Shown here: positions 43,129 through 60,189 of the stretch, piece after piece
Layout of the letters: the number at the start of each line of letters is the position of its first letter
How positions within the stretch are numbered: the stretch's first letter is position 1
Source of the DNA: Psychrosphaera sp. B3R10
GTDB lineage: Bacteria > Pseudomonadota > Gammaproteobacteria > Enterobacterales > Alteromonadaceae
Length of the DNA: 64,000 bases
Reading direction: 5' to 3'
NCBI RefSeq assembly: GCF_018861025.1
Contig: NZ_JAHKQH010000036.1
Span: forward strand, 1 to 64,000
Made by a program: the position numbers and the translations under genes
Notes under the pieces: generated by a model
Database searches by the model: none
What the model saw: only the letters and a program-made list of their open reading frames with translations
Told to the model about the DNA's origin: nothing

Positions 43129-44499
43129 TTAGTTCACCTGTTGCGAACGTTTGCCATAAATAGCAATAACAACAAAGCACAATAACGGCAGCACAAATGA
43201 CGCTTTAGTCGCCGAGAAACTGTCAAATATTGTGTTCATATCAATGATTGATGCCTGTGCCATTGGCAAGAAAGTCCCGCCGACAATAGCCATAATTAGT
43301 CCAGCGGCACCCAATTTGGCATCATCGCCAGTGTCTGTTAACGCGATACCGTATATAGTTGGAAACATCAGTGACATACAGGCGGATATTCCAACAAGGG
43401 CATAAACCCCTGCAACGCCATCTAAGAATATAGTTAATACGGTAAAGAACATGCCGCCGGCAGCCAGTAACATCAACAACTTACTTGGGTTAATGTACTT
43501 TAATAAAAAAGTACAAATAAAGCGGCTGAGACAAAATATGATCATCGCGTAAATATTCATCATTTGCGATTTTGCTTCAGCAGCTTGTTCTGTCATTCCT
43601 AGCTGGACAAACACTTCTGTGCCGTAGTGAATAATGAAAGTCCAACACATGATTTGCGCACCCACATAAAACATTTGTGCGATAACACCTTCACGATAAT
43701 TTCGGTTTGCCAACAGGCGTTTAAAAGTACCTTTTAAATCAAGCCCTTCTGACACAGTTTCAGTACGCGGCATTTTTTTAATGGCGATAACAAAAAGGAC
43801 CAACAATACGACTACACCAATCGCCAAATACGGATTACGAATTACCTCTAAGTCATTGGCCGTAATCGCAGATAGCTTATCCAGCGCAGCAGCTGAACCG
43901 TCTGCCGCGAGGGCCTGACGTTCTGCATCTGAAGCTGGGTTTAGTTTTTGAATGATAAACTGGGTGGCGACAAACATACCGAGTAATGAACCAACAGGAT
44001 TAAACGCCTGGGCCAAATTGAGTCGTTGAGTTGCCGTTTCTTTTGGTCCCATTGATAAAATATATGGATTTGCACTCGTTTCCAAAAACGAAAGCCCACA
44101 AGTCATTACAAAAAAGGCCAATAAAAACGGCGCAAATGCCTGGGCACCAGCTGCCGGTATAAACAACAACGCACCCAACGCATAAAACCCTAATCCCATA
44201 AGCAAACCTGCTTTATAGGAGAATTTTTTTATAAAGATAGCAGCGGGAATGGCCATTACGCCATAACCACCGTAAAACGCCACTTGCACCCAGGTACTTT
44301 GAGTTGTACTCATCTGCAATACTTTTGAAAAAGCTTTTACCAAAGGGTTCGTTATATCATTTGCAAATCCCCACAAAGGAAAACACAAAGTGACAAGGAT
44401 AAAACTAACAAGGTATACCTTTGGCACGACTTCTTTTGAAGATCTTTCACCACCCTGTTGAAGGTCAGCAGCGCTGTTTGCGGTATCTGTCGTATTCAT
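43129..44499 (-). CDS. fucP: FucP-like L-fucose/proton symporter (MFS)
   Basis: Twelve-helix permease of 456 residues of the FucP subfamily. It shows LVTLCFPLWGFANDITNPL, LQMSTTQSTWVQVAFYGGYG, LSFLETSANPYILSMGPKET and FPTIYGIALTDTGDDAKLGAAG, all close to E. coli FucP. The acidic residues that bind protons in FucP fall in these segments. It supplies the pathway with a deoxy-hexose from the periplasm; L-galactose and D-arabinose are alternative substrates of E. coli FucP. Confidence 0.9.
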   Translation of the reverse strand: MNTTDTANSAADLQQGGERSSKEVVPKVYLVSFILVTLCFPLWGFANDITNPLVKAFSKVLQMSTTQSTWVQVAFYGGYGVMAIPAAIFIKKFSYKAGLLMGLGFYALGALLFIPAAGAQAFAPFLLAFFVMTCGLSFLETSANPYILSMGPKETATQRLNLAQAFNPVGSLLGMFVATQFIIQKLNPASDAERQALAADGSAAALDKLSAITANDLEVIRNPYLAIGVVVLLVLFVIAIKKMPRTETVSEGLDLKGTFKRLLANRNYREGVIAQMFYVGAQIMCWTFIIHYGTEVFVQLGMTEQAAEAKSQMMNIYAMIIFCLSRFICTFLLKYINPSKLLMLLAAGGMFFTVLTIFLDGVAGVYALVGISACMSLMFPTIYGIALTDTGDDAKLGAAGLIMAIVGGTFLPMAQASIIDMNTIFDSFSATKASFVLPLLCFVVIAIYGKRSQQVN

Positions 44500-44546
44500 A
44501 ATTGGCCTTATTTTATTATTTTTATTAGTACAAATTTATAAAACGT

Positions 44547-45317
44547 TTAGTTATTGATCGTTACAAAACCACCATCAATTGGGAAATTACTGCCGGTGAT
44601 GAAGGAAGCTTCATCTGAACATAAGTATTTTACTAATGCGCCGATTTCCTTTGGTGTGCCCATTCGACCAATCGGTTGTGTTTTTGATAATGTTTCAAAC
44701 ATTTCATCGACTTGGTCTGGGTAATTTTTTTCTAAGTAGCTGTCGACAAACGGTGTATGTACTCGGGCTGGTGCAACGCTGTTACAGCGAATACCGTCAT
44801 TAACGTAATCTTTAGCGATAGAATAAGTCATGGTCAACACCGCCCCTTTACTCATTGAATAAGCAAAACGGTCAGGGATACCAACACTAGAGGCGATTGA
44901 TGCCATGTTAACGATAACACCTGATTGCTGCTTTTTCATATGGCCAACAACCGCTTGAGCACAGTTGTAAACCCCTTTAACATTGACACGGTAGACTTTA
45001 TCAAGCTCATCTTCTGGCGTTTGTTCTAATGTACCAACAGAGCCAATTCCGGCATTATTAACTAAAACGTCAATACGGCCGTGTTTGTCGGCAATATTAT
45101 CAAAAGTCTCTTTTGTCAGTTGATGATTAGACACGTCCAGCGCAACTGCCTCGGCATTACCACCTAGAGATTTGATCTCATCCACGGTTGTCTGCGCGGA
45201 TTCTAACGATAGGTCAACCACAATGATGTACTGCTCCGCAGATGCTAATGCGATAGAGATAGCGTGACCGATGCCGCTGCCACCGCCCGTTACAATTGAA
45301 ACTTTTTGCGTATTCAT
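44547..45317 (-). CDS. SDR, predicted 2-keto-3-deoxy-L-fuconate dehydrogenase
   Basis: Classical short-chain dehydrogenase of 256 residues from ATG 45317. It has VTGGGSGIGHAISIAL, the NNAG loop (VNNAGIGSVG), catalytic Ser in MASIASSVG and YSMSKG, then DGGFVTINN at the C-terminus. In the Xanthomonas-type L-fucose pathway an SDR oxidises C4 of 2-keto-3-deoxyfuconate. Family alone does not give the substrate; the surrounding pathway does. ATG 45329 is an alternative start. Confidence 0.85.
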   Translation of the reverse strand: MNTQKVSIVTGGGSGIGHAISIALASAEQYIIVVDLSLESAQTTVDEIKSLGGNAEAVALDVSNHQLTKETFDNIADKHGRIDVLVNNAGIGSVGTLEQTPEDELDKVYRVNVKGVYNCAQAVVGHMKKQQSGVIVNMASIASSVGIPDRFAYSMSKGAVLTMTYSIAKDYVNDGIRCNSVAPARVHTPFVDSYLEKNYPDQVDEMFETLSKTQPIGRMGTPKEIGALVKYLCSDEASFITGSNFPIDGGFVTINN

Positions 45318-45351
45318 CTTAAATCCCATGATTTCTATTTAATCGTTTTTG

Positions 45352-46209
45352 TTAACGATTCAGTTGGTAAAATTCGTTTGCTGTACCGTACCAAAACCGT
45401 TCTTTTTCCTGTTCTGATAAGTCACTCACTAATGTTTGTGAAAGAGTCAGCCAGTCAGAGTAATTGCTTTTTAAATTCACCACTGGCCAATCACTGCCCC
45501 ACATCATTCGGCTTGCACCAAATGTCTGATAGACATGATCAAAATAATGTTGGAAATGAGCGCTGCTTTGTTGATCAGCATTCGCTTCGGTAGTTAATCC
45601 TGATACTTTGATATAAACATTGGTTAGCGGTTTAAACACCGCTAATTCATCTGCCCATAATTGGAACTCATTTTCAGTGATATTGGGTTTCGCACAATGG
45701 TCGATCACAATTTTGAGTTTTGGGTGACGATTCGCAAGGGTATAAATTGTTTTCAAATGTTCTGTTTTAACTAATGCATCAAAGCTCAAATCTAGGTTCA
45801 CTAAACATTCAAACGTCGGATTAAAGGCTGGATTTAAAATCCATTCGACATCTTCAATGTCTTGCAACATTGGCCGTACACCTTTAAAAAAAGGATTAAC
45901 TGAAAGCTGCTTTAAACGTTCGACAACAATTTGACTTATTCCATCAAATTGAACCCAGCCAACGACACCAGACACCAGCTCATTTTCAGAGGCCAATTGC
46001 AAAAGAAAGTCCGTCTCTTCATCACTATCAGCCGCCTGCACTAAAACCGTATTGCTAGGTAAATTTTTTCCTGCAACTTGAATATAATCCGTCGGTAAAA
46101 AATCGCTATACAAATTCGATAACTCAGGCGTCAACCAGCTATAGTCGCCACGACTCAACTGCCAAAAATGCTGATGGCTATCTATAATTTCAGCGCGGGC
46201 ATCTGTCAT
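45352..46209 (-). CDS. Amidohydrolase-family lactonase, predicted L-fuconolactone hydrolase
   Basis: COG3618-type metal hydrolase of 285 residues. It opens IIDSHQHFWQLSRGDYSWL with the HxH metal motif, has LKIVIDHCAKPNITE, and MWGSDWPVVNL near the end. It opens the sugar lactone made by the aldo-keto reductase. It overlaps the reductase gene by one base. L-rhamnono- or galactono-lactone are other possible substrates in this family. Confidence 0.87.
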   Translation of the reverse strand: MTDARAEIIDSHQHFWQLSRGDYSWLTPELSNLYSDFLPTDYIQVAGKNLPSNTVLVQAADSDEETDFLLQLASENELVSGVVGWVQFDGISQIVVERLKQLSVNPFFKGVRPMLQDIEDVEWILNPAFNPTFECLVNLDLSFDALVKTEHLKTIYTLANRHPKLKIVIDHCAKPNITENEFQLWADELAVFKPLTNVYIKVSGLTTEANADQQSSAHFQHYFDHVYQTFGASRMMWGSDWPVVNLKSNYSDWLTLSQTLVSDLSEQEKERFWYGTANEFYQLNR

Positions 46210-47246
46210 TAGTAAGCGTCTCTAGTTGGTAATGGCGCATCTTGTCGCAACAGCCCATCATCTTTAAGCTGAGTCCAAAACGCCTTTGGAATATCGTAGT
46301 TAAACAACTCTATGGCTTGATCGACTCGTTTGGCACTGCCCAAACCAGGTATAACTGTCGAGACCGCAGAATGTCCTAGTGGAAATTGTAACGCCGCGGC
46401 GGCAAGTGGTACTTGAAACTGCGCGCAGATGTCTTCAATTTTATTAACTTTCGCCACCACTTCAGCCGGCGCAGGTTCATAGTTGTAGTAAGGTGTAATC
46501 TTACTATTTTTAACACCTGTCGCTAAAATCCCCGAGTTATAGGGACCACCTAATATAATGGATGCTCCGTGTTGCTCACATTGAGGTAAAAAAGTGTCTA
46601 ACGCGTCTTGCTCAAGTAATGAATACCGACCGGCTAATAAGAAACAATCAAATTGACCAATTCCCATAACCCGTTCGCAAATTTCGGTTTCATTTACACC
46701 TAGGCCAACGGCTTTAATTACACCTTGGGAACGAAGTTCATCCAGCGCTTTATAACCGCTAGAAGCTAGTTGTTGGTAATAATAAGGGTCTTGCTCACCG
46801 TGAGTATCTACGCCAATATCATGTACTAATAAAATATCAATTTGAGCCAAGCCTAAACGCTGTAAACTATCTTCAAACGAACGCATTATGCCGTCGTAGG
46901 TATAGTCGTAGTGCGAGTCAAAAGGCATTGGGGTGTCAAAACCGTACCTAAGTTCTTTTACATTTGCTTTGTGATCAGGAGTTAAAATTCGGCCAACTTT
47001 GGTGGAAATTACATAGTCAGATTTAGGTAATGTTCTAAGCGCATCACCTAGTCTTCTTTCGCTTAAACCCAGTCCATATCTCGGTGCAGTATCATAAAGG
47101 TTAATCCCCGATGCTTTTGCTGCATCAAGGGTTTCTTGAGCTTCATTATCAGAAATAGCCTTGTATAAATTTCCAAGCGATGCCGCTCCAAAACCAAGTT
47201 CTGAAACTTCAAGACCTGTGTCACCAATTTGTCTGTTTTTAAACAT
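46209..47246 (-). CDS. Aldo-keto reductase, predicted L-fucose (D-threo-aldose) dehydrogenase
   Basis: TIM-barrel oxidoreductase of 345 residues. Motifs are GLEVSELGFGAASLGNLY, INLYDTAPRYGLGLSERRLG with catalytic Asp/Tyr, LVHDIG and TVIPGLGSAKRVDQAIEL. It resembles D-threo-aldose 1-dehydrogenases, which oxidise L-fucose, L-galactose and D-arabinose at C1 with NAD(P). First enzymatic step of the pathway encoded here. Confidence 0.87.
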   Translation of the reverse strand: MFKNRQIGDTGLEVSELGFGAASLGNLYKAISDNEAQETLDAAKASGINLYDTAPRYGLGLSERRLGDALRTLPKSDYVISTKVGRILTPDHKANVKELRYGFDTPMPFDSHYDYTYDGIMRSFEDSLQRLGLAQIDILLVHDIGVDTHGEQDPYYYQQLASSGYKALDELRSQGVIKAVGLGVNETEICERVMGIGQFDCFLLAGRYSLLEQDALDTFLPQCEQHGASIILGGPYNSGILATGVKNSKITPYYNYEPAPAEVVAKVNKIEDICAQFQVPLAAAALQFPLGHSAVSTVIPGLGSAKRVDQAIELFNYDIPKAFWTQLKDDGLLRQDAPLPTRDAY

Positions 47247-47261
47247 CGATTTTCGACTCCA

Positions 47262-48455
47262 CTATCTAATGGTAGGCAAGCAAGAAGGACCAATTCCTTC
47301 AAACTTTTTGTACGTTAACACAAATTCTTGGTGCCCTAACTCTTCAGATTTAGATTGTTTGCCTTGCGCTACTTCTTTCACCAATTGGTAAATTTCTTCA
47401 CCAACTTGGTCAACGGTTGCTTCACCGTTGATGACTTTACCAGCGTTAATATCCATATCCTCGGACAAATTTTCATAGGTTTCTGGATTAGCACAAACTT
47501 TAATAACAGGAGAAATTGCAGAACCGACAACAGAGCCTCGGCCTGTTGTAAATAAAATGATATGGGATCCAGATGCGATCATTTCGACAATTTCTGCACT
47601 ATCGACAATGTTTGGAAAACCAAACATCGGGTCGCCGTCAGGTACAACGTCCATTAAATACAAACCACCTTGGGTTGGAATATCACCTGGCTTAATCAAA
47701 CCATGTATTTTAGAGCTGCCCGATTTAGCGTACGCCCCCATCGATTTTTCTTCTTGAGTAGAAAGGCCACCTTCAGCATTGCCTGGTGCAAAACTGCCGT
47801 AGCCCATGCGGGTATAGTAATCTTCTGCTTTCTCGACGGATTTTATAATTTCAACACCAAGCTCTGGCGTTATGGCTCGTTCAGCCATGATCTGTTCACA
47901 ACCGATTAATTCACCAGTTTCTTCAAACATACAAATAGCATCATCTTCGATAAGCTTGTCAAAGCAACGACCAACCGCAGGATTTGCACCTATACCACTT
48001 GTTCCGTCAGAGCCACCACAAATAGTCCCGACAACAAGTTCATTCATGGCCATAGGCACTAACTCAGTTTGATCCGCGATTTCACGAAGTCGGCTAACAC
48101 TTGATAACCCAGCTTCAATGGTTTTCCTTGTGCCACCTGATTGCTGGATAACAAGTGTTTCTACTGGTCTGCCGCTTGCTTCGACAGTTTTGGCTAATTG
48201 CTCGCGGTTAAAGCCTTCACAACCTAAAGAAACAATAAGGACACCACCTACGTTCGGATGACTGCACAAACCTTCCATTATTTTTAACGAATATTCATTT
48301 GGGTAACATCCAGGAAAGCCAATGAGTTGTACCTCATCATCAGTTGAGTCAGCAACGACAGAACGAGCAACATGGTGCGCGCATTCCACTAGGTAAGTGA
48401 CTAATATGACGTTACGAATACCTTTGCGGCCATCCGCTCTTAGATAACCTTTCAT
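47262..48455 (-). CDS. UxaA-family dehydratase large subunit, predicted L-fuconate dehydratase
   Basis: Protein of 397 residues equal to the C-terminal catalytic part of altronate/galactarate dehydratases: MKGYLRADGRKGIRNVILVT, VSLGCEGFNREQLA, VGTICGGSDGTSGIGANPAVG and FTTGRGSVVGSAISPVIKVCANPE, including conserved Cys residues. It probably works with the small SAF-domain subunit encoded just upstream and overlapping by four bases. Xanthomonas uses an enolase-superfamily enzyme for L-fuconate dehydration, so this would be a non-homologous replacement. Confidence 0.87.
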   Translation of the reverse strand: MKGYLRADGRKGIRNVILVTYLVECAHHVARSVVADSTDDEVQLIGFPGCYPNEYSLKIMEGLCSHPNVGGVLIVSLGCEGFNREQLAKTVEASGRPVETLVIQQSGGTRKTIEAGLSSVSRLREIADQTELVPMAMNELVVGTICGGSDGTSGIGANPAVGRCFDKLIEDDAICMFEETGELIGCEQIMAERAITPELGVEIIKSVEKAEDYYTRMGYGSFAPGNAEGGLSTQEEKSMGAYAKSGSSKIHGLIKPGDIPTQGGLYLMDVVPDGDPMFGFPNIVDSAEIVEMIASGSHIILFTTGRGSVVGSAISPVIKVCANPETYENLSEDMDINAGKVINGEATVDQVGEEIYQLVKEVAQGKQSKSEELGHQEFVLTYKKFEGIGPSCLPTIR

Positions 48456-49419: not shown

Positions 49420-50676
49420 CTAAGCGTTAACCATTTCACTGAGCTTTTGAAAGGATGCCGACGATTTATCCTTAACATCACAGATGCTAAGTAAGTCATC
49501 GATAAAGTGCATAAGTGCGCGGTATTCTATTTGTTTAACAAGAGCTTGCTGAGTTCCCGTCAACATGTGATACATGGTCGCAGCGCCAAAATCACCAACA
49601 ATAATATTAGCCTCGTCATCAAATAACGAATTGTGAGCATAGAGATCACCATGGCAAACTTGGTTTTGATGTAAGTGTTCAAAGACCTCTGTCATCTGTT
49701 CTACCATTTTATTTATCTTTGAAATTGGCAAACTCAGACCGGGGGCAAAATTGTCACGAGTGCACGAATCAAAACACGGTGGCAAGCCTAGGTTATAAAA
49801 ATTATCTGGGATTAATTCCATGATTAGCGCTAAATAGCCAGCTTCATTAACTTGGGCTAATGACTGAATAAGATTAGGATGATTACCTACTTTTAAACAC
49901 GCTTGCAGTTCGTCTTGAGGATAACCATCGCTGGTCACTTCACCTTTAAATACTTTAACTGCTACGTCTTCTGGAAACTGATTTTCTGGAAACTGATTTT
50001 GTGGTTTACGCCATTTAGCTTTTGAGATCACTCCCGAGGCTCCTTGCCCAAGCACTTGTTGCAGTTCAAAACTATCGAAACGAACCGTAGGCACATCTTG
50101 TATTTTAATGTTAACTTGGCAAAAAGGATTACCAGAAAATGCCAACCATGCCAATTTAGGCAAACCTAATAATTGCTCAGGGCATTCGGTAAGTTGATTA
50201 GCTGATATCCTGATAAGTTCGAGGTTGTGTAAATGGCGCATGCTTTGTGGCAAAGCTTTAAGCTGGTTCCCAGATAGTGCCAACTTTTGCAATCGTGGGC
50301 GATAACCTAACGACTCCGGTAATAACTCTATTTCGTTATCGGTCAAAATCAACCAACGCAACTGTTCTGGTAAAGCCTGTTCTGGAACGTGTTTGATTTG
50401 GTTCGCTTTAAAGCCGATCATTTCAAGGTTTTTGCATTGACCTAACACCACCGGCAAACTGGTAAATAAGTTATTAGAAGCAAATACAATTTTTAGCTTG
50501 TGCAATTGGCTAAACTCTGGCGGTAAACTGCTTAGGCGGTTTCCCGACAAATCTAATATCTCTAAACTATCCGCTAGGGTCAAAATTTCCATTGGAAATG
50601 AAGTTAAATCTTGTTGGATTTTTAGGTGCTGTGCGCCAACGAGTTCACCAGATTGAAGTTGAGATAGAGTATGCAA
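49420..50676 (-). CDS. Leucine-rich-repeat protein kinase
   Basis: Cytosolic protein of 418 residues. The first 200 hold seven to eight LRRs of the LP-x-x-L type (LEILDLSGNRLSSLPPEF, LQKLALSGNQLKALP). A eukaryotic-like Ser/Thr kinase follows: glycine loop LGQGASGVISKAKW, VAVKVF lysine, ELQAC Glu, catalytic loop HGDLYAHN (HGD instead of HRD) and GDFGAATM. The start is TTG 50676, since MHTLSQLQSGEL is the usual family opening. A 15-base tandem duplication (NQFPENQFPE) lies between the glycine loop and the Lys. The LRR part is probably a ligand or partner sensor; targets are unknown. Confidence 0.87.
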   Translation of the reverse strand: MHTLSQLQSGELVGAQHLKIQQDLTSFPMEILTLADSLEILDLSGNRLSSLPPEFSQLHKLKIVFASNNLFTSLPVVLGQCKNLEMIGFKANQIKHVPEQALPEQLRWLILTDNEIELLPESLGYRPRLQKLALSGNQLKALPQSMRHLHNLELIRISANQLTECPEQLLGLPKLAWLAFSGNPFCQVNIKIQDVPTVRFDSFELQQVLGQGASGVISKAKWRKPQNQFPENQFPEDVAVKVFKGEVTSDGYPQDELQACLKVGNHPNLIQSLAQVNEAGYLALIMELIPDNFYNLGLPPCFDSCTRDNFAPGLSLPISKINKMVEQMTEVFEHLHQNQVCHGDLYAHNSLFDDEANIIVGDFGAATMYHMLTGTQQALVKQIEYRALMHFIDDLLSICDVKDKSSASFQKLSEMVNA

Positions 50677-50903: not shown

Positions 50904-52583
50904 TTAGTCTAGTTTTGATTCCAACTCAGTTAATTTGGGCGCATTGGTAACATTTGTCTCGCCATTATTTTTAGTGGCTAAATCACCATACCAATAAGCG
51001 CCAACCGCATATCCCATTTCAACGTCTTTCCAGTGCCACACTTCCATATCTAAAGTAAGTGACTTAGAAAATGGCATAGTATCAAGTGAGCGAGTACGTG
51101 TTTCAACACTATAACCCTGCGTATTTCGTTCATTTGTCTCTTTGCGATTTAACTGATTATAAACGTTACTCGCCGGTTGAGCATGGAATGGGTGTTGGTA
51201 AAAGTCGGTACTTATACCGCCCCACGAATACCCATAATAGTCTTCGGTACCCGTTCCAAAAATTGATGGGAATGTTTCGCCGTCAACATAGATTTTTTCA
51301 TCGCCTTCACCCCACCAGCGGGCAATCGGATTCCAAATGGTCAACGTATCACCCACATAAACCCCGCGGCCACTTAATTTAACGTAATTCCAGTCTGAGA
51401 ACGGACGAGTGGCAACAGGATATTCGCCACGCCAGCTCGCATGAAAATAAAGTGAGCTGTCATCCCATTTACGATCAGTGACTTTAACCTGAAGTGTAAA
51501 ATCGACAGGCTTATTGGACATATTTAAAATCGACACTTTAGCTGTTTTTTGGAATGGCATAACCCAACGAGTCGTTAACTTACCGGCTTTGGTGACCGTT
51601 CGATACCAACCTTCAAACGGGTTTAAGCCAACGCCAGTGCCAAAAAATTCACTAATTGGTGTATAGACCGTTTGTTGCCCATCAAATTCTATTTTTAAAA
51701 CAACTGAACGTGTGATGTTTTTATCACTATAATCATTCAGTTTTAATGACAATTCGTTAATCGCCGACGAACCGGTATCGATATCTAACGATTTCTCCTC
51801 ACCGTTGTTTAACGTCCCAGCGATTGCATTAACCTGACCTTCTACTGCTTTGTATGGTGCATTAAGTTGTTTTGCGACTTTTTCCATCAAAGGTATTGCT
51901 GCTGTAAACTCTGCCGCAGAATAACTTTCAACTTTAGCTGTTTTGTTATATTCACGATAAGTCATTTGGTAAAAGAACGGGCGTTCCGAAACGGTAATTT
52001 TTAGACCTTTGGCATATGGAATTGGATAGAATGAAACCGCAGAACGAAGCGATTCATGCGCAAGTGGGAAGGGTATGGCGCCTTTACCATTTAACAACTC
52101 AAACATGTTGCCTTCTAGCACAGGCTCTTTTGCGCCATCTATATAAAAGCGAATGATCGAATTGGTCGTTGCTTTTTTATCATTTTTCCACGGCATCCAA
52201 GTACGCACTAAAGCCCCCGGACCTTTTGCATCCATTAAGACCCATTCATTACCATTTGCTGTTTCTTCAATTCTAATAAAGTTTTTATCTTTTTTATTAC
52301 TGTTAAAATCATGATTTAAAAACCATGTTTCTGGATTTTGTGGATCGTCAGACGCCCTGTTGTAACTAGACTCTTGCTTTAGCCTAAATTCTGCGTCTGG
52401 ATAATGCGTAATCAAATCCCGGTCAATCATTTCTGTTAAAAGCGACTTTACCGAAATAAGTCTTGCGCCCCTGTCCTCACCGCTGCTGGTTTTTCCTGAC
52501 TCCGAATTGTGGGTTAAATTAATAACACTAAGGGCAAGAACCCCTAATAAAACGACAATTACGAAATATCTTAACTTTGGCAT
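50904..52583 (-). CDS. DUF2961 (GH172) family glycoside hydrolase
   Basis: Protein of 559 residues with an N-terminal membrane anchor or signal (LRYFVIVVLLGVLALSVI). The body has DUF2961 features: GPGALVRTWMPW near residue 130, GWYRTVTKAGKLTTRWVMPF, and FPSIFGTGTEDYYGYSWGG, whose Glu is in the catalytic region of GH172. Characterised GH172 members act on alpha-D-fructofuranosides or alpha-D-arabinofuranosides. Next to a pathway that could use D-arabinose, the second activity is attractive but unproven. Confidence 0.85.
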   Translation of the reverse strand: MPKLRYFVIVVLLGVLALSVINLTHNSESGKTSSGEDRGARLISVKSLLTEMIDRDLITHYPDAEFRLKQESSYNRASDDPQNPETWFLNHDFNSNKKDKNFIRIEETANGNEWVLMDAKGPGALVRTWMPWKNDKKATTNSIIRFYIDGAKEPVLEGNMFELLNGKGAIPFPLAHESLRSAVSFYPIPYAKGLKITVSERPFFYQMTYREYNKTAKVESYSAAEFTAAIPLMEKVAKQLNAPYKAVEGQVNAIAGTLNNGEEKSLDIDTGSSAINELSLKLNDYSDKNITRSVVLKIEFDGQQTVYTPISEFFGTGVGLNPFEGWYRTVTKAGKLTTRWVMPFQKTAKVSILNMSNKPVDFTLQVKVTDRKWDDSSLYFHASWRGEYPVATRPFSDWNYVKLSGRGVYVGDTLTIWNPIARWWGEGDEKIYVDGETFPSIFGTGTEDYYGYSWGGISTDFYQHPFHAQPASNVYNQLNRKETNERNTQGYSVETRTRSLDTMPFSKSLTLDMEVWHWKDVEMGYAVGAYWYGDLATKNNGETNVTNAPKLTELESKLD

Positions 52584-52687
52584 TATATTTACCTTATGAG
52601 TTACCGCTTATTTTCTACTAAAAACCGAACATTGCACGGGTAGAAACAATCTGATTTTGAAGCTGATAAATGACTATTTTTAAATTT

Positions 52688-52735
52688 GTAGAAGCTAGGC
52701 CAACTGAATAAACGTCAGTGATTCAAAGCTTCTAC
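52688..52735 (-). terminator. Hairpin downstream of the cohesin-like gene
   Basis: Arms GTAGAAGCT and AGCTTCTAC are perfect. On the minus strand they precede an AT-rich but not T-pure stretch. Placed just after the cohesin-like gene stop, so a weak terminator is likely. Confidence 0.45.
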
Positions 52736-52740
52736 TTAGA

Positions 52741-53298
52741 TTACTTACTAGAAGCGCGACGTTTACCGACCAATAACACAAGCGAGCAGATTAGAAATGC
52801 AAATGCTGAAGGCTCAGGTACGTCAGTTACACTAAATGTAACGCTGCTATCAACGGCTTCATACCCAAAATTAGCCAAGAATATGCCTGTAAACATGCCA
52901 TCGTTACCCAATAACGTTAGGGTATCTGAACCGGCTGTATGAGCAGTAAAATTAAGCGTTGCTAATGTCACTTGAGCACTGTTAATTGGGTCAAAAGAAA
53001 CGACAAACTGATCGATATCTGCGCCGCCAGGAAATGACATAAAGTCTAAATTAAATAGACTGTCACCTAAATAATCGACAGTTTGTAATGCTTCATCATT
53101 AATATCAAAAGCGAAACCTTCTAACGTTTGCTGCGTTGCATTATCAAATACAACGTCGATAGTAAAATCATCACCTACTTTGATATCTGTAGATGAAATT
53201 TCATAGATAATGCCAGCTTGTGCACTTGTAGATAAAATCAAAAAGAGTGAGACCAAACATGTCTTCATCGAGTTTTTTAGTGATATTAGTGTTTTCAT
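52741..53298 (-). CDS. PEP-CTERM protein with cohesin-like domain
   Basis: Secreted protein of 185 residues: signal peptide ending near STSAQA, then a single beta-sandwich resembling cohesin (DIKVGDDFTIDVVFDNA, LEGFAFDINDEALQTVDYLG, AQVTLATLNFTAHTAGSDTLTL, FGYEAVDSSVTFSV), then a canonical PEP-CTERM tail VPEPSAFAFLICSLVLLVGKRR. It is encoded directly after a glycoside hydrolase that ends in a dockerin module, separated only by a terminator. It may act as a surface or matrix receptor for that enzyme. The cohesin call is by pattern and needs a profile check. Confidence 0.75.
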   Translation of the reverse strand: MKTLISLKNSMKTCLVSLFLILSTSAQAGIIYEISSTDIKVGDDFTIDVVFDNATQQTLEGFAFDINDEALQTVDYLGDSLFNLDFMSFPGGADIDQFVVSFDPINSAQVTLATLNFTAHTAGSDTLTLLGNDGMFTGIFLANFGYEAVDSSVTFSVTDVPEPSAFAFLICSLVLLVGKRRASSK

Positions 53299-53321
53299 TA
53301 AAAGTTACCTATTTATTATTG

Positions 53322-53358
53322 TTTTAAAATGCCGCCACATAAAGAGTTAGTGGCGGCA
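53322..53358 (-). terminator. Terminator between the dockerin hydrolase and the cohesin-like gene
   Basis: Arms TGCCGCCAC and GTGGCGGCA form a GC-rich 9-bp stem, followed on the minus strand by TTTTAAAAC. It sits 11 bases after the hydrolase stop, so the cohesin-like gene would depend on read-through or its own promoter. Confidence 0.8.
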
Positions 53359-53368
53359 AGTTGATTGA

Positions 53369-55639
53369 TTATTGTTGACGGTAAATAGCGTAAAGCTGAC
53401 CATAATCTAAGCGTGAAATGACACCATCGTTATCGAAGTCAGCAGCGGGCAAATAACCCTCGTCGCTACTTCTTAAACCATAGACAGCCATAAATGCCGT
53501 AATGTCACCGCGGTTAATTTCGCCATCGTTGTTAATATCACCAGCAATTTGTGGTTCTGGGAACGTGATGACATAAGCAACAACCGATTTTGCATTTATC
53601 TCGGTTTCTGCACTTGTTTCAGTCATTTTAGTAAGTGACATCTGCTCACCTTCTGCCGATGTCCCTTCAAACCAAGCAACACGTTCAATAGTCGCATCAC
53701 CAAGTTCTTCGCCATTAATATTAAGCGTTGTATCTAAGTGCTCAGCTTCATTGCTATTCATAACCCAAAGGATTAATTTATTGCCATCGCGAAACGCCAT
53801 GGTTTCAACATTGGCTAAACCTGTTTTTTGGGTTGGAATATAATGCGCACCAGCTGGGGCATGGTTACCAAACATTTTCATGATGTAGTAAGCACGCATA
53901 CGCTCACCTTCACCTTTGTTCGCGAAATAAATAGCGCGTGTTTCACGCCCGATACCGCGTGACCACGGTTCAAAAAACAATTCACCTTCCATACCTGAAC
54001 GATAAAACATAGCTCGGCTAGACATTCGACCAATTGGAAAATCCATGTCCAACTCGACACCATAAGTAGGGCCAGTTCCTAGACCCGTCTCAGTGTGCCA
54101 AACAGACAAACCCAATTCATTGGCGTTATTAATAAGAGTGGTCCATGTTGCTTCCGTCGCGTTGTCATAACTATGAGTTGAAATTCCTTTAAACAAACCA
54201 AGCGCATTTTGATTTTTGTAGCTGTTTAAAATAGAGATCGCTTGCTTAGTGCCCCAAGTTGATGGTCCTGAAAACTCTGGTTCAGGCACGCCAGCGTAGT
54301 CACTTGTTGTTAATAGACGTTTAATTTCTTGTATCACGGCAACTTCGTTTGTTGCTGAAACCACCTGAGACCACTCTTTAACCACGCTCATTACACTAAT
54401 TGCAACGTCGTTATCACTCATGTACTTGAGATAATCAGCTAAAAATCGTGCGTACTTTTGAATGTTAAGTTTGCTTGGTTCGTAACTACCGCCATTGTGT
54501 CCACCGCCGGTATAAATCCAGTCTGGTAGATTATTGGTTGTGCCATACCCGTCATAATCAGATTTTAATGTCGCCCAAAACTTAAGGTTTGGATTAGATT
54601 GTCTCGCCATTTTCATTGATAAAACGGCTCTATTGTAAAAAGCCAAATTTGGTGCACCTTCAACTAATTCTTGCTTACGGTCGTAAGACACTCGTGAATA
54701 GTCGAATTTAATGTCTTTGAATACCCAATCTGAAATTTGTTGCGAATTACTGGCATTATTTAGGAAGAATTGCGAGCGCTCCATATCTGAGCCCATCAAG
54801 GTAATTTCTTGTTGAGGATCAGTTAAGTCAATCGTAATACTGTTTTCAACTTCAACCGGGCGCGACCAACAAAATTTACTTCTACCTGACGCTGGGTCAC
54901 CAAATACGCTATTTGAGCAAGAGACATCTTCATATACCGTTTTATAAAAGAAAGCGCCTTCTCTGCCATAAGCGACTTCATGATAGTCAGTTAAGTAACA
55001 TGTATCACCTTCTGAACCGCAATATGTCCATTCTTCGCCCTCTGGCGCAACTGGTTCTTCAGTAACCGGTTGTCTAATCCAGCAGTGCTTGTATTTACCC
55101 GGTGCAGCGTCACCGAATACCGCATTTGTACAGCTCGCGCCATCTTCATGGGTTTGAAATGCAAATAACCCATCACGACCAAAAGCGACTTCATATGTGC
55201 CTTCAAATGGACAGGTATTACGTTCACCTATGCAAAAAATCCAGCCGGCCCCCTCTGGCGGTGTTAAATGTGATGTATCTTTACGTGTCCAACAGTACTT
55301 TCTTTTTCCTGGCAAAGGGTCGCCAAAAACCGAAGGCGCGCAATACACGCCATCAGTATGATATTGATAAGCAAAAGCGCCATTGACCCCAAAAGCAACT
55401 TCTTTGCTTCCGTCAAATTCGCAGGTTTCTAACGCGCTAGAACATAAACTCCAGTTAGCACCAGGTGGAATGGTTTCCGCTGCTTGGGAAGCGCCAGCAA
55501 ATAGGCCTAGACACATAACAAGCATGAGATGTAATGATTTGAAATACGACGCGTATGAGACTTGTGCTTTAGAAACACGAATCTTCCGCTTTCCTCGGTA
55601 CTGATTTATTCCGTTTTTAATTTGTTGATGATTACTCAT
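53369..55639 (-). CDS. Dockerin-bearing glycoside hydrolase with three Cys-rich N-terminal repeats
   Basis: Secreted enzyme of 756 residues. ATG 55639 has AAGG upstream and gives a long signal ending near GASQAA. Three Cys-containing repeats of about 65 residues follow (each with C-F/Y-x-G/D-EVAFG/EVAYG, VFGDP-PG and K-x-CW). The catalytic (alpha/beta)8-like domain covers about 265-590, with SVVKEWSQVV and VWHTETGLG as candidate acid/base and nucleophile Glu, a clan-A pattern near GH30. A beta domain follows. The end is a type I dockerin with two calcium loops (DINNDGEINRGD, DFDNDGVISRLD). The substrate is unknown. Confidence 0.78.
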   Translation of the reverse strand: MSNHQQIKNGINQYRGKRKIRVSKAQVSYASYFKSLHLMLVMCLGLFAGASQAAETIPPGANWSLCSSALETCEFDGSKEVAFGVNGAFAYQYHTDGVYCAPSVFGDPLPGKRKYCWTRKDTSHLTPPEGAGWIFCIGERNTCPFEGTYEVAFGRDGLFAFQTHEDGASCTNAVFGDAAPGKYKHCWIRQPVTEEPVAPEGEEWTYCGSEGDTCYLTDYHEVAYGREGAFFYKTVYEDVSCSNSVFGDPASGRSKFCWSRPVEVENSITIDLTDPQQEITLMGSDMERSQFFLNNASNSQQISDWVFKDIKFDYSRVSYDRKQELVEGAPNLAFYNRAVLSMKMARQSNPNLKFWATLKSDYDGYGTTNNLPDWIYTGGGHNGGSYEPSKLNIQKYARFLADYLKYMSDNDVAISVMSVVKEWSQVVSATNEVAVIQEIKRLLTTSDYAGVPEPEFSGPSTWGTKQAISILNSYKNQNALGLFKGISTHSYDNATEATWTTLINNANELGLSVWHTETGLGTGPTYGVELDMDFPIGRMSSRAMFYRSGMEGELFFEPWSRGIGRETRAIYFANKGEGERMRAYYIMKMFGNHAPAGAHYIPTQKTGLANVETMAFRDGNKLILWVMNSNEAEHLDTTLNINGEELGDATIERVAWFEGTSAEGEQMSLTKMTETSAETEINAKSVVAYVITFPEPQIAGDINNDGEINRGDITAFMAVYGLRSSDEGYLPAADFDNDGVISRLDYGQLYAIYRQQ

Positions 55640-56168
55640 AGTAATACCTTTTATTTTTATTATATTTTTCAAATTACCTGTCGACTTTTGGCAGTAAATT
55701 CATTCCACTACCGTTTCTTTCATCTTTATTGTTAATACACCTCGGTTAATACGTGAACATTCAACCTTCCTAAATAAACGACGATCGTCACTCGCAAAAT
55801 ACCAACGAATTAACGAAATCAATTTCAACCATAGGTGGTAAAACCGCATGCCCTTACTCCGGCCTAAAATTTAAACAATAGAAAATACGAAAACCGTAAA
55901 TATTCGTTAATATTTCGAATATTGTTGTGAGGTTGGCGGATATAAAACAATGTCGAGACGTGGTGAAATGGAACTAAATTTCAGGTAGATAAGGTAATAA
56001 TTTAGGAAAATATGCTGATTGCAAACATGACAAAAAGAGCACGAAGGTCATTAATACGTTCATAGTTTGTAAATAAGAGCGCACATATTTTGTGTTCAGC
56101 GCCCTCGAATTACGATTAAAGTGTCATTAATTGCGCTCTATTATTACTCGATAATAAAGTAGGTCATG
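55640..56168. other. Upstream region of the dockerin hydrolase
   Basis: A 529-base AT-rich stretch without a convincing gene. It should hold the promoter of the leftward dockerin hydrolase. I see an AT-rich imperfect palindrome near 55890-55925 (AATATTCG/CGAATATT) but no assigned operator. Confidence 0.35.
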
Positions 56169-57194
56169 CTAATTTACTGCTTTTGGTGGTTTTAATTTGC
56201 GGGAGCCAGGAACTTTGGATGCGCTAATTTCAGGAGAAAATTGAACCATTTTAATGCTGCCATCTTCATTAAAATCCATACGCTCAAAACTTGCAGAGCG
56301 TCGGAAAAAGGTCCCGTCATTAACATCACTCCGATGGTAAAATAAGTACCATTGGTTCTCGAATTCAATTGCAGAAGTATGCGCTGGAGAATCTGTTTGA
56401 TCCGGTGTCATTGGCCCCATGTGAGTTGCATATGATGAAGGCAGTGGCGAATCTGACATAAAATATTCAGTTCTAGCTCCGCGGCGCGCTAAAAAGTAGT
56501 ACTTACCTTCTCGTTTAAACACTGTCACAGCTTCGTTTACCTGCTCTTTCGATAGTCTGACCCATGGTCCATCTAACTCTGTCATGTTCGATTTGAGTTT
56601 CGCGCCCATGACATGCCAACCGGGAGCACCGATATCCACTTTATGATCATTGCCATAAATATAGGCTTGGCCGTCGTCATCAACAAATACGGTTGGGTCA
56701 AAAATAGAGGTTATCTTGTCAGTGACAGCTTCTTCCCAAGGTCCGATGGGCGTTCGGCTTTTAGCGACGCCAACATGTGTTTTTTCATATGGAAAGTAGA
56801 AATAATACCAACCATCTTTATAGGCAACATCAGGTGCATTCATTTGGCCCGATGCCCAGCTATACTGCCTAGGTTTGAGCACTACGCCGTGATTTATCCA
56901 GGTTTTTAAGTCCGATGATTCCAAAACTAAATAATCTTGCATGCTATTAAAACTTTTTGCATCAGGTTGGTCATGAGATGCGTAAACATAGACTTTGCCG
57001 TCAAATACTTCAGCGGCAGGGTCAGCTACATACAAAAAACCCGCTTCGCCTTTTTTTAAGATAGGGTTAGAAGGTAACACCTCAGCCTTTTCTGTATTGT
57101 CTGTTTTAATAGGGGATGTATTGCACGCAACGAGTAAACTCATTACCAGAGCCATTGTTAATGTTGCCATAACCTTAATTCGTTTTTGATCCAT
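56169..57194 (-). CDS. GH43-family beta-propeller glycosidase lipoprotein
   Basis: Lipoprotein of 341 residues (lipobox LLVAC). The GH43 catalytic triad is visible as Asp in FLYVADPAAEVFDGKVYVY, a pKa-tuning Asp in SIFDPTVFVDDDGQAYIYG, and Glu in EQVNEAVTVFKREGKYYF. Predicted exo-acting arabinofuranosidase, xylosidase or galactosidase on the cell surface or in the periplasm. It lies in the hydrolase block with GH172 and an SSS symporter gene, all leftward. Confidence 0.85.
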   Translation of the reverse strand: MDQKRIKVMATLTMALVMSLLVACNTSPIKTDNTEKAEVLPSNPILKKGEAGFLYVADPAAEVFDGKVYVYASHDQPDAKSFNSMQDYLVLESSDLKTWINHGVVLKPRQYSWASGQMNAPDVAYKDGWYYFYFPYEKTHVGVAKSRTPIGPWEEAVTDKITSIFDPTVFVDDDGQAYIYGNDHKVDIGAPGWHVMGAKLKSNMTELDGPWVRLSKEQVNEAVTVFKREGKYYFLARRGARTEYFMSDSPLPSSYATHMGPMTPDQTDSPAHTSAIEFENQWYLFYHRSDVNDGTFFRRSASFERMDFNEDGSIKMVQFSPEISASKVPGSRKLKPPKAVN

Positions 57195-57230
57195 CTAAGT
57201 ACGCTCATGTTAATTCGGAAAATCTAAATT

Positions 57231-57265
57231 AAAAAAGGCTGCTAATATTCATTAGCAGCCTTTTT
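57231..57265. terminator. Strong bidirectional terminator after the SSS symporter gene
   Basis: Arms AAAAAGGCTGCTAAT and ATTAGCAGCCTTTTT around a 4-base loop make a 15-bp perfect stem with T-runs on both strands, 63 bases after the symporter stop. Confidence 0.92.
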
Positions 57266-57327
57266 CAGTATTATTCTAAAAGTACCTTGCAATAAAAATA
57301 CTGCTCTATAAAGGTACTAGACTTTGA

Positions 57328-58890
57328 CTACCACCATGTGGTGTAAAGGGCGATTAGAATGATTACAACAACAACCGTAGCAATATTAAATCCTTTGGTC
57401 GTTTCAAAACTGACTTCACTTAAATCAACACTTTCATTACTTGATTCAGCTTTACCTGCAAGCGAAACGATGACGCATAATGCCAAACATAATAAGAAGA
57501 CAACGCCTACACGGTCCATAAACGGCAGTTCAGGCCAGTAAACTTTAAGTAGTAATGAGAACCCGGCTGAACCTAATGCAGCAGCTAATGCACCGGCAGA
57601 TGTCGCTTTAGACCAGAACATACCCATAACAAATATCACAACAATACCCGGCGTAAAGAAGCCCGTGAATTCTTGGATATACTGGAATGCTTGGTCAAAC
57701 TTACCAAGTAATGGTTCAGCGACAAATAGCGCGATTGTTAGTGATGCTAACGCTGCAACACGGCCAACTTGTACATAATGACGTTGCGACTTCCCTTGTT
57801 TTATTTTAGCGTAAATATCCATAGTGAATATTGTTGAAATACTGTTAGTCATTGATGCTAATGACGACACAATTGCCGCAACTAATGCCGCAAATACTAA
57901 ACCTTTAATACCGACTGGCATTAATGACATCATCGAAGGATAAGCTTGGTCAGGTGCGCTTAATTGAGGATATAGAATAACTGCAGCGATACCAGGTACA
58001 ACAACAATCAACGGCATTAGTAATTTAAGGAAAGCAGCAAACGCGATGCCTTTTTGGGCTTCTTTTACATCTTTAGCCGCTAAAGCTCGTTGAATAATAT
58101 ATTGATTGAAACCCCAGTAGCTGAAGTTCATTATCCACATACCACCAACTAATACCGATATACCTGGTAGGCTCATATAATGTTCATTTTCAGGGGATAA
58201 GATCATGTCAAAATGAGCAGGAGCATGTTCAGTTAAAACACTAAACCCAGCGATAAAGCCTTGACCATCAGAAACCGCGTCTAGCGCTAAGTAACTTAGT
58301 AACAAACCACCAAAGACTAACAATACAACCTGTAAAATGTCGGTATAAGCAACCGCTTTTAAACCGCCATATAACGAATAAGCAATAGAGAATACTGCAA
58401 GGAAGATCATGCCATACATCCAATCTACGCCTGCTACCGTTTCAATCGCTAATCCGCCTAACCAAAGTACCGCGGTTAAGTTAACAAATACATAAACTGC
58501 TAACCAAAATAGCGCTAACGTCGTTTTCACTTTGCTATCAAAACGTTGCTCTAAATACTGTGGCATAGTGTAGATATTGTTTTTCAGGAAAATAGGCAAC
58601 ATGTATTTACCTACAATAATTAGGGTAATGGCCGCCATCCATTCATACGATGCTATTGCGATACCAACCGCATATCCTGAACCAGACATACCGATAATTT
58701 GTTCTGCTGATATGTTAGAGGCTATGAGTGATGCGCCAATTGCCCACCATGGTAAAGACTTACTCGCTAAAAAATAATCTTCGGTATTTTTACCGCCTTG
58801 TTTATCTTCACGTGAAATCCACAGCGCTAGCATTAGCAGACCTAATACATATGCAATGAATACCGTTGTATCCAACATTTCTAACTTCAT
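57328..58890 (-). CDS. Sodium:solute symporter (SSS family, SGLT-like)
   Basis: Inner-membrane protein of 520 residues with about 14 helices. Signatures are SLPWWAIGASLIASNISAEQ, the typical SSS loop of sugar symporters, YSLYGGLKAVAYTDILQVVL and LVFAALVAAIVSSLASMTNS with a sodium-site Ser pair. It would import a sugar released by the surrounding hydrolases with Na. AAGGAAC lies six bases before the start. Confidence 0.92.
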   Translation of the reverse strand: MKLEMLDTTVFIAYVLGLLMLALWISREDKQGGKNTEDYFLASKSLPWWAIGASLIASNISAEQIIGMSGSGYAVGIAIASYEWMAAITLIIVGKYMLPIFLKNNIYTMPQYLEQRFDSKVKTTLALFWLAVYVFVNLTAVLWLGGLAIETVAGVDWMYGMIFLAVFSIAYSLYGGLKAVAYTDILQVVLLVFGGLLLSYLALDAVSDGQGFIAGFSVLTEHAPAHFDMILSPENEHYMSLPGISVLVGGMWIMNFSYWGFNQYIIQRALAAKDVKEAQKGIAFAAFLKLLMPLIVVVPGIAAVILYPQLSAPDQAYPSMMSLMPVGIKGLVFAALVAAIVSSLASMTNSISTIFTMDIYAKIKQGKSQRHYVQVGRVAALASLTIALFVAEPLLGKFDQAFQYIQEFTGFFTPGIVVIFVMGMFWSKATSAGALAAALGSAGFSLLLKVYWPELPFMDRVGVVFLLCLALCVIVSLAGKAESSNESVDLSEVSFETTKGFNIATVVVVIILIALYTTWW

Positions 58891-59057
58891 TATTGTTCCT
58901 TGGGATGGTTCTTATTTTATTATTAGTAAACAAGCGGAACATCAAAAAACCGTATTTTTAATATCAGCAATAATAAGACATTGAATTATTTATATTTTTG
59001 ACGGGAGATTGTGGGTGCCTAATATACGTAACACATGCTGCACTTTGATTCGAGCCA

Positions 59058-59094
59058 AAAAATTAAGGGGGCTAACAATATGTTGGCCCCTTTA
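59058..59094 (-). terminator. Terminator of the beta-propeller hydrolase gene
   Basis: Arms AAGGGG-CTAAC and GTT-GCCCCTT form a stem. On the minus strand TTAATTTTTTGG follows. Twenty-eight bases after the stop codon. Confidence 0.8.
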
Positions 59095-59121
59095 GTTATC
59101 TACAATGATAAGTTAGACACG

Positions 59122-60189
59122 TTAGTCTACTTTTTTAGGAATGATCTTAAATAAATGCGAAGCACTGCCATGTTCTGGAGTTTCATTTATGCCTGTGGCC
59201 ATATAAACATAAGCCGGTTTGCCATCGATAAATAAGATTTGTGGGCGTTCTAAACGACCATTTATTTTACCGCGATAGACAATAGAGTCTTTGAGCGCCG
59301 CTTTGCCAACATAGTGCTCCAATGCTTCAAAAGAGCGTGTAATTTTTTCCTCTGGGAAAAACATGCCGTCATCTGAGCGCCAAAGTAAACCACCACCGTG
59401 ATCGCCTTTTAAGTTACCAAAATCGCGACTCAGCAAATAGACACTGTCTTTGTACTCAAACGCATAAGCATCTTCAATGCCTGCACGGGTTGTTGCACTT
59501 TTGTGATAAGTGTATGGTCCTTCTAAATTATCAGAACTTGCTATACCGTAAGTGAACGCGCCTCTTTTTTTCTTTGGATTTTTCTGAATTACAGATTTTA
59601 AATACAACAGATATTTACCATCTTTTTTAATCAGGCTTGGATTAGAAACACCCAGTCTTGCGTGGTAATTCCAAGCAGTTTTGTCAGTAGATTTACGTAA
59701 AATGGTACCGTCAGCCTCAGCACTTTTAGCCGGTCGCCAGTTACCCTTTAAGTCATCGGCGACAAACATAATAATTCGTTGTGTTTTTAACTGGTTGTTA
59801 GAGTTCACTATAAAAGTAAGTACATACTTTCCATCTAAGTATTTAATTGTAGGGTTGTGCGGGGCATTAAAACCGGTGTCCAAATCGGCAACCGCTTTAC
59901 CAAGATAGGTAAACGGGCCTTCTGGTTTATCGGCGACATAATGGCCTATTTCGCTATCTTTAAACCAACCGCTAAAATTTTTTTGGGTTTTAGTTGGCCA
60001 TTGGGCAACAAATAAATGCACTTTGCCGTCTGGACCTATAATAGGTGATGCTCCCCATATATGGGTATCTTTTTTCTCCAATACCTTGCCTACATATTCG
60101 TAGTCAAAATCATAAGTTTCAGCTTGGCTTAACCCAGGAATTAAGAATAAAAAAGCAAATAAGCTCCTTTTTAAGAAGGCGAATTTCAT
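59122..60189 (-). CDS. Secreted beta-propeller glycosidase (GH43/GH117-like superfamily)
   Basis: Protein of 355 residues with a signal peptide (cleavage near LSQA). The pattern of repeated blades (IWGASPIIGPDGKVHLFVAQW, APHNPTIKYLDGKYVLTFIV, GVSNPSLIKKDGKYLLYLKS, IEDAYAFEYKDSVYLLSRDF) fits five-bladed propeller hydrolases. I cannot fix the family: no clear GH43 DPA motif is present, and GH117-type or an unassigned group is possible. Candidate acids are Asp in GIEDAYAF and Glu in SFEALEHYVG. Periplasmic role in the same carbohydrate programme. Confidence 0.7.
   Translation of the reverse strand: MKFAFLKRSLFAFLFLIPGLSQAETYDFDYEYVGKVLEKKDTHIWGASPIIGPDGKVHLFVAQWPTKTQKNFSGWFKDSEIGHYVADKPEGPFTYLGKAVADLDTGFNAPHNPTIKYLDGKYVLTFIVNSNNQLKTQRIIMFVADDLKGNWRPAKSAEADGTILRKSTDKTAWNYHARLGVSNPSLIKKDGKYLLYLKSVIQKNPKKKRGAFTYGIASSDNLEGPYTYHKSATTRAGIEDAYAFEYKDSVYLLSRDFGNLKGDHGGGLLWRSDDGMFFPEEKITRSFEALEHYVGKAALKDSIVYRGKINGRLERPQILFIDGKPAYVYMATGINETPEHGSASHLFKIIPKKVD

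Follow-up and report, generated by a model that had tools for sequence, protein, structure and literature searches.

Genes for dockerin-tailed, predicted secreted enzymes and adjoining single-cohesin proteins with PEP-CTERM-like tails form a cassette in Alteromonadaceae

We analysed a 64,000-nucleotide (nt) stretch of DNA (the window) from the Alteromonadaceae member Psychrosphaera sp. B3R10 (contig NZ_JAHKQH010000036.1), whose 48-contig assembly is coded G000 here. On its minus strand, a gene for a 756-amino-acid (aa), predicted secreted enzyme with a GH30 (glycoside hydrolase family 30)-like catalytic domain and a dockerin tail (53369..55639) is followed by a gene for a predicted secreted 185-aa protein with a single cohesin (52741..53298), which begins 70 nt past the stop codon of the enzyme on the same strand. 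An initial annotation of the window had singled out these neighbours, and the observed cohesin–dockerin gene pair proved to be real; it is not the single case described there, but one instance of a family-wide cassette. The cohesin of the window is probably the enzyme's own socket, predicted to bind the dockerin and to hold the enzyme at the cell surface or in exopolysaccharide.

Searches for the pair covered 196 genomes, comprising that of B3R10 and its relatives, of which 118 belong to its own family. The Pfam dockerin model PF00404 gave 96 matches in 63 of these genomes, or 93 places once three neighbouring double matches were merged, and the surroundings of all 93 were examined. A cohesin-like gene lies downstream on the same strand at 57 of the 93 places (44 of the 63 genomes), in 54 cases within 200 nt. 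A cohesin profile (A3), seeded from dockerin loci with signal peptide and tail removed, was then used in the reverse direction without reference to dockerins. It found 99 cohesin places in 57 of the 196 genomes, and at 96 of them a dockerin gene lies on the same strand no more than 1000 nt away (E ≤ 0.01 with our own dockerin profile, which was built from paired dockerins). The three unpaired places are G117:C3:265330, G042:C32:24302 and G133:C76:15982. The partnership of the two genes is thus upheld by the co-occurrence survey, and the refuting outcome named in the initial annotation, that they never occur together in related genomes, did not arise. The cohesin gene follows the dockerin gene in 88 of the 96 pairs and precedes it in 8; the reversed order is also found in Aliiglaciecola lipolytica E3. 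Cohesin places outside the A3 training set were paired in 39 of 42 cases. Moreover, a five-row profile centred on the window, two of whose hits are its own rows, recovered pairs at 22/22 places at E ≤ 1e-4, 24/25 at 1e-3 and 26/37 at 1e-2, and all 11 unpaired hits at the last threshold are absent from the A3 list. The cohesin family occurs in 55 of the 118 own-family genomes, in 25 of 274 genomes of a class sample (two of them in the family) and in 11 of 398 genomes of a phylum sample (eight in the family). In the class sample, a dockerin (E ≤ 0.1) lies no more than 1.5 kb from 12 of the 26 cohesin loci outside the family; two of the 12 are views of one place, and one (L217) is in frame with the cohesin.

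To separate the contribution of the dockerin from that of the enzyme, one nuclease and one collagenase were searched in the 196 genomes and the tails were read at 30 places each; 20 further nuclease places were added, picked because the match stops before the dockerin, and these added loci show ~0.8–0.9 kb past the end of homology. Among collagenases, a cohesin gene stands beside 10/10 dockerin-tailed and 0/20 dockerin-less enzymes; among nucleases, one lies within the flank of 19/28 dockerin-tailed and 0/22 dockerin-less enzymes. The combined control therefore gives a cohesin neighbour for 29/38 dockerin-tailed versus 0/42 dockerin-less enzymes (Fisher 3.1e-14), or 5.5e-15 when a twentieth nuclease with a cohesin, seen by profile A3 in G008, is counted. 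A good many of the 38 recur in the set of 96 pairs, and the new information lies in the 42 dockerin-less places. The cohesin tracks the dockerin, not the enzyme.

The partner enzymes themselves are diverse. All 96 partners were searched with Pfam at E ≤ 1e-4, in two sets of 48. The matches listed, which comprise the first 25 families of each set, include Exo_endo_phos in 33, a lamin-tail domain in 32, Endonuclease_1 in 16, collagenase M9 in 10 of the first set (it is absent from the families listed for the second) and M43 in 6, with smaller counts for porphyranase domains (2), GH98 (1) and glucuronyl esterase (1). Nuclease families account for up to 49/96 partners among the matches listed, with overlaps between families possible. 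PF00404 reaches 1e-4 in 33/96 partners, and the remaining dockerins were recognised by lower PF00404 scores or by the paired-dockerin profile. Nuclease and metalloprotease partners outnumber glycoside hydrolases, so the cassette is not mainly for glycoside hydrolases, and the notion of a polysaccharide-only system had to be given up. The GH30-like enzyme of the window is a minority case among cassette partners.

Dockerins and cohesins also vary together. The distances among the 96 dockerins correlate with those among their 96 cohesins (Mantel r 0.50), a value reached by 0 of 2000 shuffles and by 0 of 2000 shuffles made within genomes. Furthermore, the true pairing beats the swapped pairing in 54/55 within-genome comparisons, and in 29/30 genomes with two or more pairs, in a test that left out near-identical paralogues (dockerins or cohesins differing by <0.2). 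This within-genome matching counts against species history as the sole cause of the correlation.

Several variations in pair architecture were seen in passing. The partner proteins at L155, L182, L191 and L193 have their dockerin close to the N-terminus, and there the cohesin gene is the first of the two; at L206 (G436), outside the family, a cohesin gene has dockerin genes on both sides. By our reading of the sequence, the A. lipolytica E3 pair has sulfatase-like and GH2-like genes close by. An LCTRxRCA-type Cys pair closes many of the paired dockerins; where it is absent, the linker that separates the loops tends, by eye, to be longer and the cohesin partner to be of the window type.

The proposed link with exosortase sorting was likewise supported. 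Exosortase (PF09721) is found in 114 of the 196 genomes, namely in 57/57 cohesin-bearing genomes versus 57/139 others, and inside the family in 55/55 cohesin-bearing genomes versus 36/63 others; one of the 57 hits (G106) is a fragment below the cut-off, and the B3R10 exosortase scores 228.2 bits at G000:C2. Tails of cohesin-family members match PF07589 in 40/60 cases at E ≤ 0.1 and TIGR02595 in 30/60 at E ≤ 0.01, and the Aliiglaciecola orthologue of the window cohesin passes TIGR02595. The tail of the window protein (52744..52821, −) has the corresponding layout of VPEP, hydrophobic helix and basic end (KRR). PEP-CTERM tails, like MYXO-CTERM tails, have been linked with the cell surface or exterior (PMC12188702 and PMC11980579, respectively).

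In the window, the enzyme begins with an N-terminal region that we read as containing a signal peptide (…LGLFAGASQAA; 55478..55639, −). Three Cys-containing repeats of ~65 aa each follow (54830..55471, −), which share 39% identity, across 197 aa, with repeats at the C-terminus of a Streptomyces chitinase and may be carbohydrate-binding; they are possibly a shared, unnamed binding module, and their weaker relatives include GH78 and galactose-oxidase-like proteins. The catalytic domain (53570..54820, −) appears to be a distant GH30 relative. It scores 27.6 bits (1.5e-6) with the NCBIfam model XynC, far below the cut-off of 650, and a 23-row profile of it (A6) matches solved GH30 xylanases in the PDB (best 8.8e-8); a Pfam scan of the enzyme gave no GH family match at E ≤ 1. 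The C-terminal type I dockerin (53396..53545, −) scores 27.9 bits with PF00404, above the curated cut-off of 22.9, and contains two duplicated calcium loops of the D-x-N/D-x-D-G type, DINNDGEINRGD and DFDNDGVISRLD, in agreement with the dockerin identity first assigned to it.

The small protein carries a signal peptide (…LSTSAQA; 53215..53298, −; our reading, with an AlphaFold2 helix at residues 2–22) and a cohesin domain (52834..53202, −) recognised by profile A3 and by fold matches. AlphaFold2 models it as a beta-sandwich whose structure matches assign it to the cohesin fold, and the closest folds include the Clostridium perfringens cohesin modules 2vo8, 2w1n and 2jh2. When the cohesin-family profile was compared with the PDB, 27 of the 28 best matches were cohesins or cohesin-like modules (top 3.5e-12), and the Pfam cohesin model PF00963 matches 29/60 family members at E ≤ 0.1 (best 3.2e-6). 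A single-sequence PDB search with the window protein returned no cohesin among its matches, and a protein-database search returned 3 relatives at E ≤ 0.01, which is why cohesin relatives were taken from the genome searches.

Elsewhere in the B3R10 genome, searched for dockerins by PF00404 alone, we found three dockerin enzymes in total, all with a GH30-like domain, and two cohesins by profile A3. On contig C11, a dockerin gene is directly followed by a cohesin-like gene whose product is 37% identical to the window cohesin. PF00963 adds one stretch below the cut-off (12.4 bits) in a 1046-aa frame on C34, and no multi-cohesin scaffoldin was found in this genome, in which profile A3 detects two single-cohesin genes. 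In the tail of the C11 cohesin (L006:9013-9651), SSGG stands in place of VPEP and is followed by a hydrophobic helix and a basic end. The genome encodes a rhombosortase (155.8 bits, cut-off 84) in addition to its exosortase, so the two sister cohesins may use different sorting enzymes; the C11 cohesin was rejected as a certain GlyGly-CTERM protein, having no match to the NCBIfam GlyGly-CTERM model. A fourth GH30-like paralogue (L006:10032-12653, −), in which a dockerin was not seen, adjoins the C11 pair, and its repeats resemble those of the third dockerin enzyme, on C45.

The two genes of the window are separated by a predicted hairpin with a 9-bp stem (53330..53358, −; RNA fold), and a fold energy of -18 kcal/mol (z -4.88) is predicted for the 72-nt stretch that leads from the end of the enzyme gene, stop codon included, in the direction of the cohesin start. 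At least 30 nt lie between the genes in 49 of the 88 pairs in which the cohesin comes second, and 31 of these 49 stretches fold below -12 kcal/mol; the hairpins between many other pairs differ in sequence. With gene starts chosen by a rule of thumb, the median z of the intergenic stretches (-2.28) differs from those of coding (0.03) and upstream (-0.15; n 42) stretches and does not differ from that of stretches after the cohesin gene (-2.16). We therefore rejected the hairpin as a specific regulatory element, and the likeness to post-cohesin stretches suggests that it could simply mark a 3′ end or act as a terminator, although a consensus terminator scan did not list the window hairpin. Stem-loops set subunit ratios in the cellulosome operon of Clostridium cellulolyticum (PMC4423207), and the idea that the hairpin after the enzyme gene might similarly set the ratio of the two transcripts is, for the pair described here, a guess based on analogy and a predicted fold.

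We propose that the signal peptides read from both sequences would export the two proteins, that exosortase, which co-occurs with the cohesin family, would process the cohesin tail, and that, outside the inner membrane, the cohesin would receive the calcium-dependent dockerin, keeping the enzyme near the cell instead of letting it diffuse away. We infer docking from the protein families, the gene linkage and the pairwise co-variation. In relatives, the cassette carries proteins whose domains match those of nucleases, of collagenases and other metalloproteases, and of some enzymes active on polysaccharides. A wider proposal is that this is a modular Gram-negative surface-attachment system in its own right, in which any large secreted enzyme with a dockerin has a private, exosortase-sorted single-cohesin tether next door, with pair specificity and a hairpin-set ratio, and which is the main natural use of cohesin–dockerin pairs in the family, directed largely at extracellular DNA and protein; we give this extended version about even chances.

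A number of results weigh against the socket reading. Two of them concern the identity of the window protein: alone, it scores 15.7 bits with PF00963, under the curated cut-off of 24.1, and its tail scores 12.1 bits with PF07589, under the cut-off of 20.7, nor is it among the 12 places that PF07589 finds in the genome at E ≤ 0.01. The cohesin identity given in the initial annotation hence stands by family profile and fold but not by the Pfam model applied to the protein alone, and its canonical PEP-CTERM ending stands as a tail layout but not as a match above the cut-off. The docking test gave no confident docked pose. For it, the window dockerin, the intergenic read-through and the cohesin were modelled by AlphaFold2 as one artificial chain from an 80-row alignment with 35 joined pairs including the first; the VIA rows obtained for the resulting model span the cohesin part. 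Both domains folded well (dockerin blocks 93–97; most cohesin blocks 80–97, with dips of 56–65), and the predicted TM-score (pTM) was 0.54, by our estimate about what the cohesin alone would give. Partners are also missing in places: 36/93 PF00404 places lack a downstream cohesin, and although in five of these the cohesin lies on the opposite side or follows a dockerin that is internal, and some resemble EF-hands or sit at contig ends, real orphans remain. Nine of the 28 dockerin-tailed nucleases have no cohesin in view within the flank, and the C45 dockerin of the B3R10 genome, with no adjoining cohesin, is a true orphan. The sole failure of the swap test is the B3R10 genome itself, a near tie (-0.023) between two pairs that are close paralogues, and co-variation could come from joint inheritance of two adjacent genes. 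A role of the dockerin as substitute for a sorting tail in cis was dropped as a main claim, as 1/20 of the added dockerin-less nucleases is tailed (L287, GG-type).

One alternative is a shared hub, in which one or two anchored cohesins would serve several dockerin enzymes of the genome by exchange, in the manner of a minimal dispersed cellulosome. The B3R10 genome, with its three dockerin enzymes and two cohesins, is consistent with such sharing, which also leaves the initially proposed single-enzyme design uncertain there; its orphan C45 dockerin is identical to the window dockerin at 44/62 positions, the swap test cannot separate its two pairs, and in G016 four dockerins found by PF00404 face a single cohesin, beside which lies a further, divergent dockerin gene. 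The pair-by-pair match in 29/30 multi-pair genomes suggests distinct partners instead, and B3R10 has no multi-cohesin gene that we could find, so that we regard a hub as somewhat unlikely. The cohesin might otherwise act as a helper in export or release, binding the dockerin in transit until exosortase processing frees the complex into the matrix or medium. When the PEP-CTERM system was described, the fate of its proteins was open, and many were thought likely to cross the outer membrane and add to extracellular material (Haft et al. 2006, PMC1569441), which would suit release; against it stand the links reported between tails of this kind and the surface or exterior of the cell. The present data do not separate anchoring from release, and we consider release unlikely.

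Two further explanations would do away with docking altogether. The cohesin-fold protein could be nothing more than a PEP-CTERM matrix protein, encoded in one operon with secreted enzymes but binding none of them, and its fold does resemble domains with other roles: ciliary and translocon proteins are among the ten best matches of one fold search, and complement and macroglobulin domains are among the lower rows of a second. A non-binding neighbour is, however, hard to reconcile with a gene that follows the dockerin tail across nuclease, protease and glycosidase families and whose linkage is kept in both gene orders, which makes this explanation quite improbable. That the association is an artefact of an iterated profile, trained at dockerin loci and recruiting arbitrary secreted PEP-CTERM proteins, we find hardly credible: the wide profile was indeed seeded in dockerin loci and the dockerin profile came from paired dockerins, but signal peptide and tail had been cut off before the search, 39 of the 42 places outside the training set are paired, and the PDB matches are cohesins. 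The most likely reading is a private tether, in which each dockerin enzyme has a one-cohesin, exosortase-sorted partner of its own.

Around the pair lie two GH43-like genes together with genes for a DUF2961 protein and a sodium:solute symporter (50904-60189, −), suggesting a polysaccharide-use locus. Nearby, a five-gene run (43129-48455, −) encoding a Major Facilitator Superfamily (MFS) transporter, a short-chain dehydrogenase, an amidohydrolase, an aldo-keto reductase and a galactarate/altronate dehydratase looks like a sugar-acid catabolic operon. Between them, one protein (49420-50676, −) combines leucine-rich repeats with a following protein kinase domain, a layout that is, to our knowledge, unusual for a bacterium.

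The survey yields 96 two-gene cassettes whose partners are predicted, and comparing enzymes that have a dockerin with those of the same families that lack it supplies an internal control. Some of the cassettes are in named cultured relatives (Gayadomonas joobiniege and A. lipolytica). If the proposed docking holds, exosortase sorting would be tied to concrete extracellular enzymes, the way in which these bacteria retain DNases, collagenases and enzymes active on polysaccharides close to the cell would be explained, and many natural candidate cohesin–dockerin pairs would be at hand for Gram-negative cell display. In the literature searched, which leaves out most subscription journals, no paper connects PEP-CTERM or exosortase to cohesins or dockerins in such an arrangement, and none deals with dockerin, nuclease and Alteromonadales together; one archaeal review mentions dockerin and exosortase, with no such gene pair in its available text. 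The role of cohesins and dockerins outside cellulosomes has been stated to be not known (PMC5244752).

In cellulosomes, such as that of Clostridium thermocellum with its scaffold CipA, enzymes with type I dockerins assemble on a multi-cohesin surface scaffold. The cassette shares with them the type I dockerin on secreted enzymes, a cohesin-fold partner and a proposed surface attachment, and differs in having one cohesin per protein, Gram-negative hosts, a PEP-CTERM-like tail and many partners that match nucleases or proteases. The pair would function much as an anchoring pair of a cellulosome does; we do not file it as a cellulosome because no multi-cohesin gene was found in its own genome. 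The cohesin modules of C. perfringens GH33 and GH84 proteins are near in fold, non-cellulosomal and associated with secreted hydrolases, but by their structure titles they are modules of the enzyme itself, whereas the cohesin described here is a separate small tailed protein. In the "planctosome" of freshwater Planctomycetes, a domain-based hypothesis, cohesin–dockerin contacts are likewise proposed to hold extracellular peptidases; there, lamin-tail and cohesin are parts of a single anchor of 2,210 aa, which is complemented by an adaptor (PMC6461901), while here the cohesin protein is of ~180 aa with a PEP-CTERM-like tail, and the lamin-tail, where present, is on the dockerin protein. The tripartite C-terminal tail is familiar from the GlyGly-CTERM/rhombosortase and PEP-CTERM/exosortase systems, and GlyGly-CTERM cargo includes extracellular nucleases and proteases (PMC3237569, PMC1569441); in those systems the tail is on the enzyme itself, and here it is on a separate docking partner. 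Besides the planctosome, the nearest concept is engineered Escherichia coli display, in which an Archaeoglobus cohesin–dockerin pair is used so that cohesin on a Gram-negative cell captures a dockerin-tagged enzyme (PMC9705933); a 2025 review of cellulosomes mentions Gram-negative display as an engineered adaptation (PMC12484212). The pair described here would be a natural counterpart of the man-made E. coli display.

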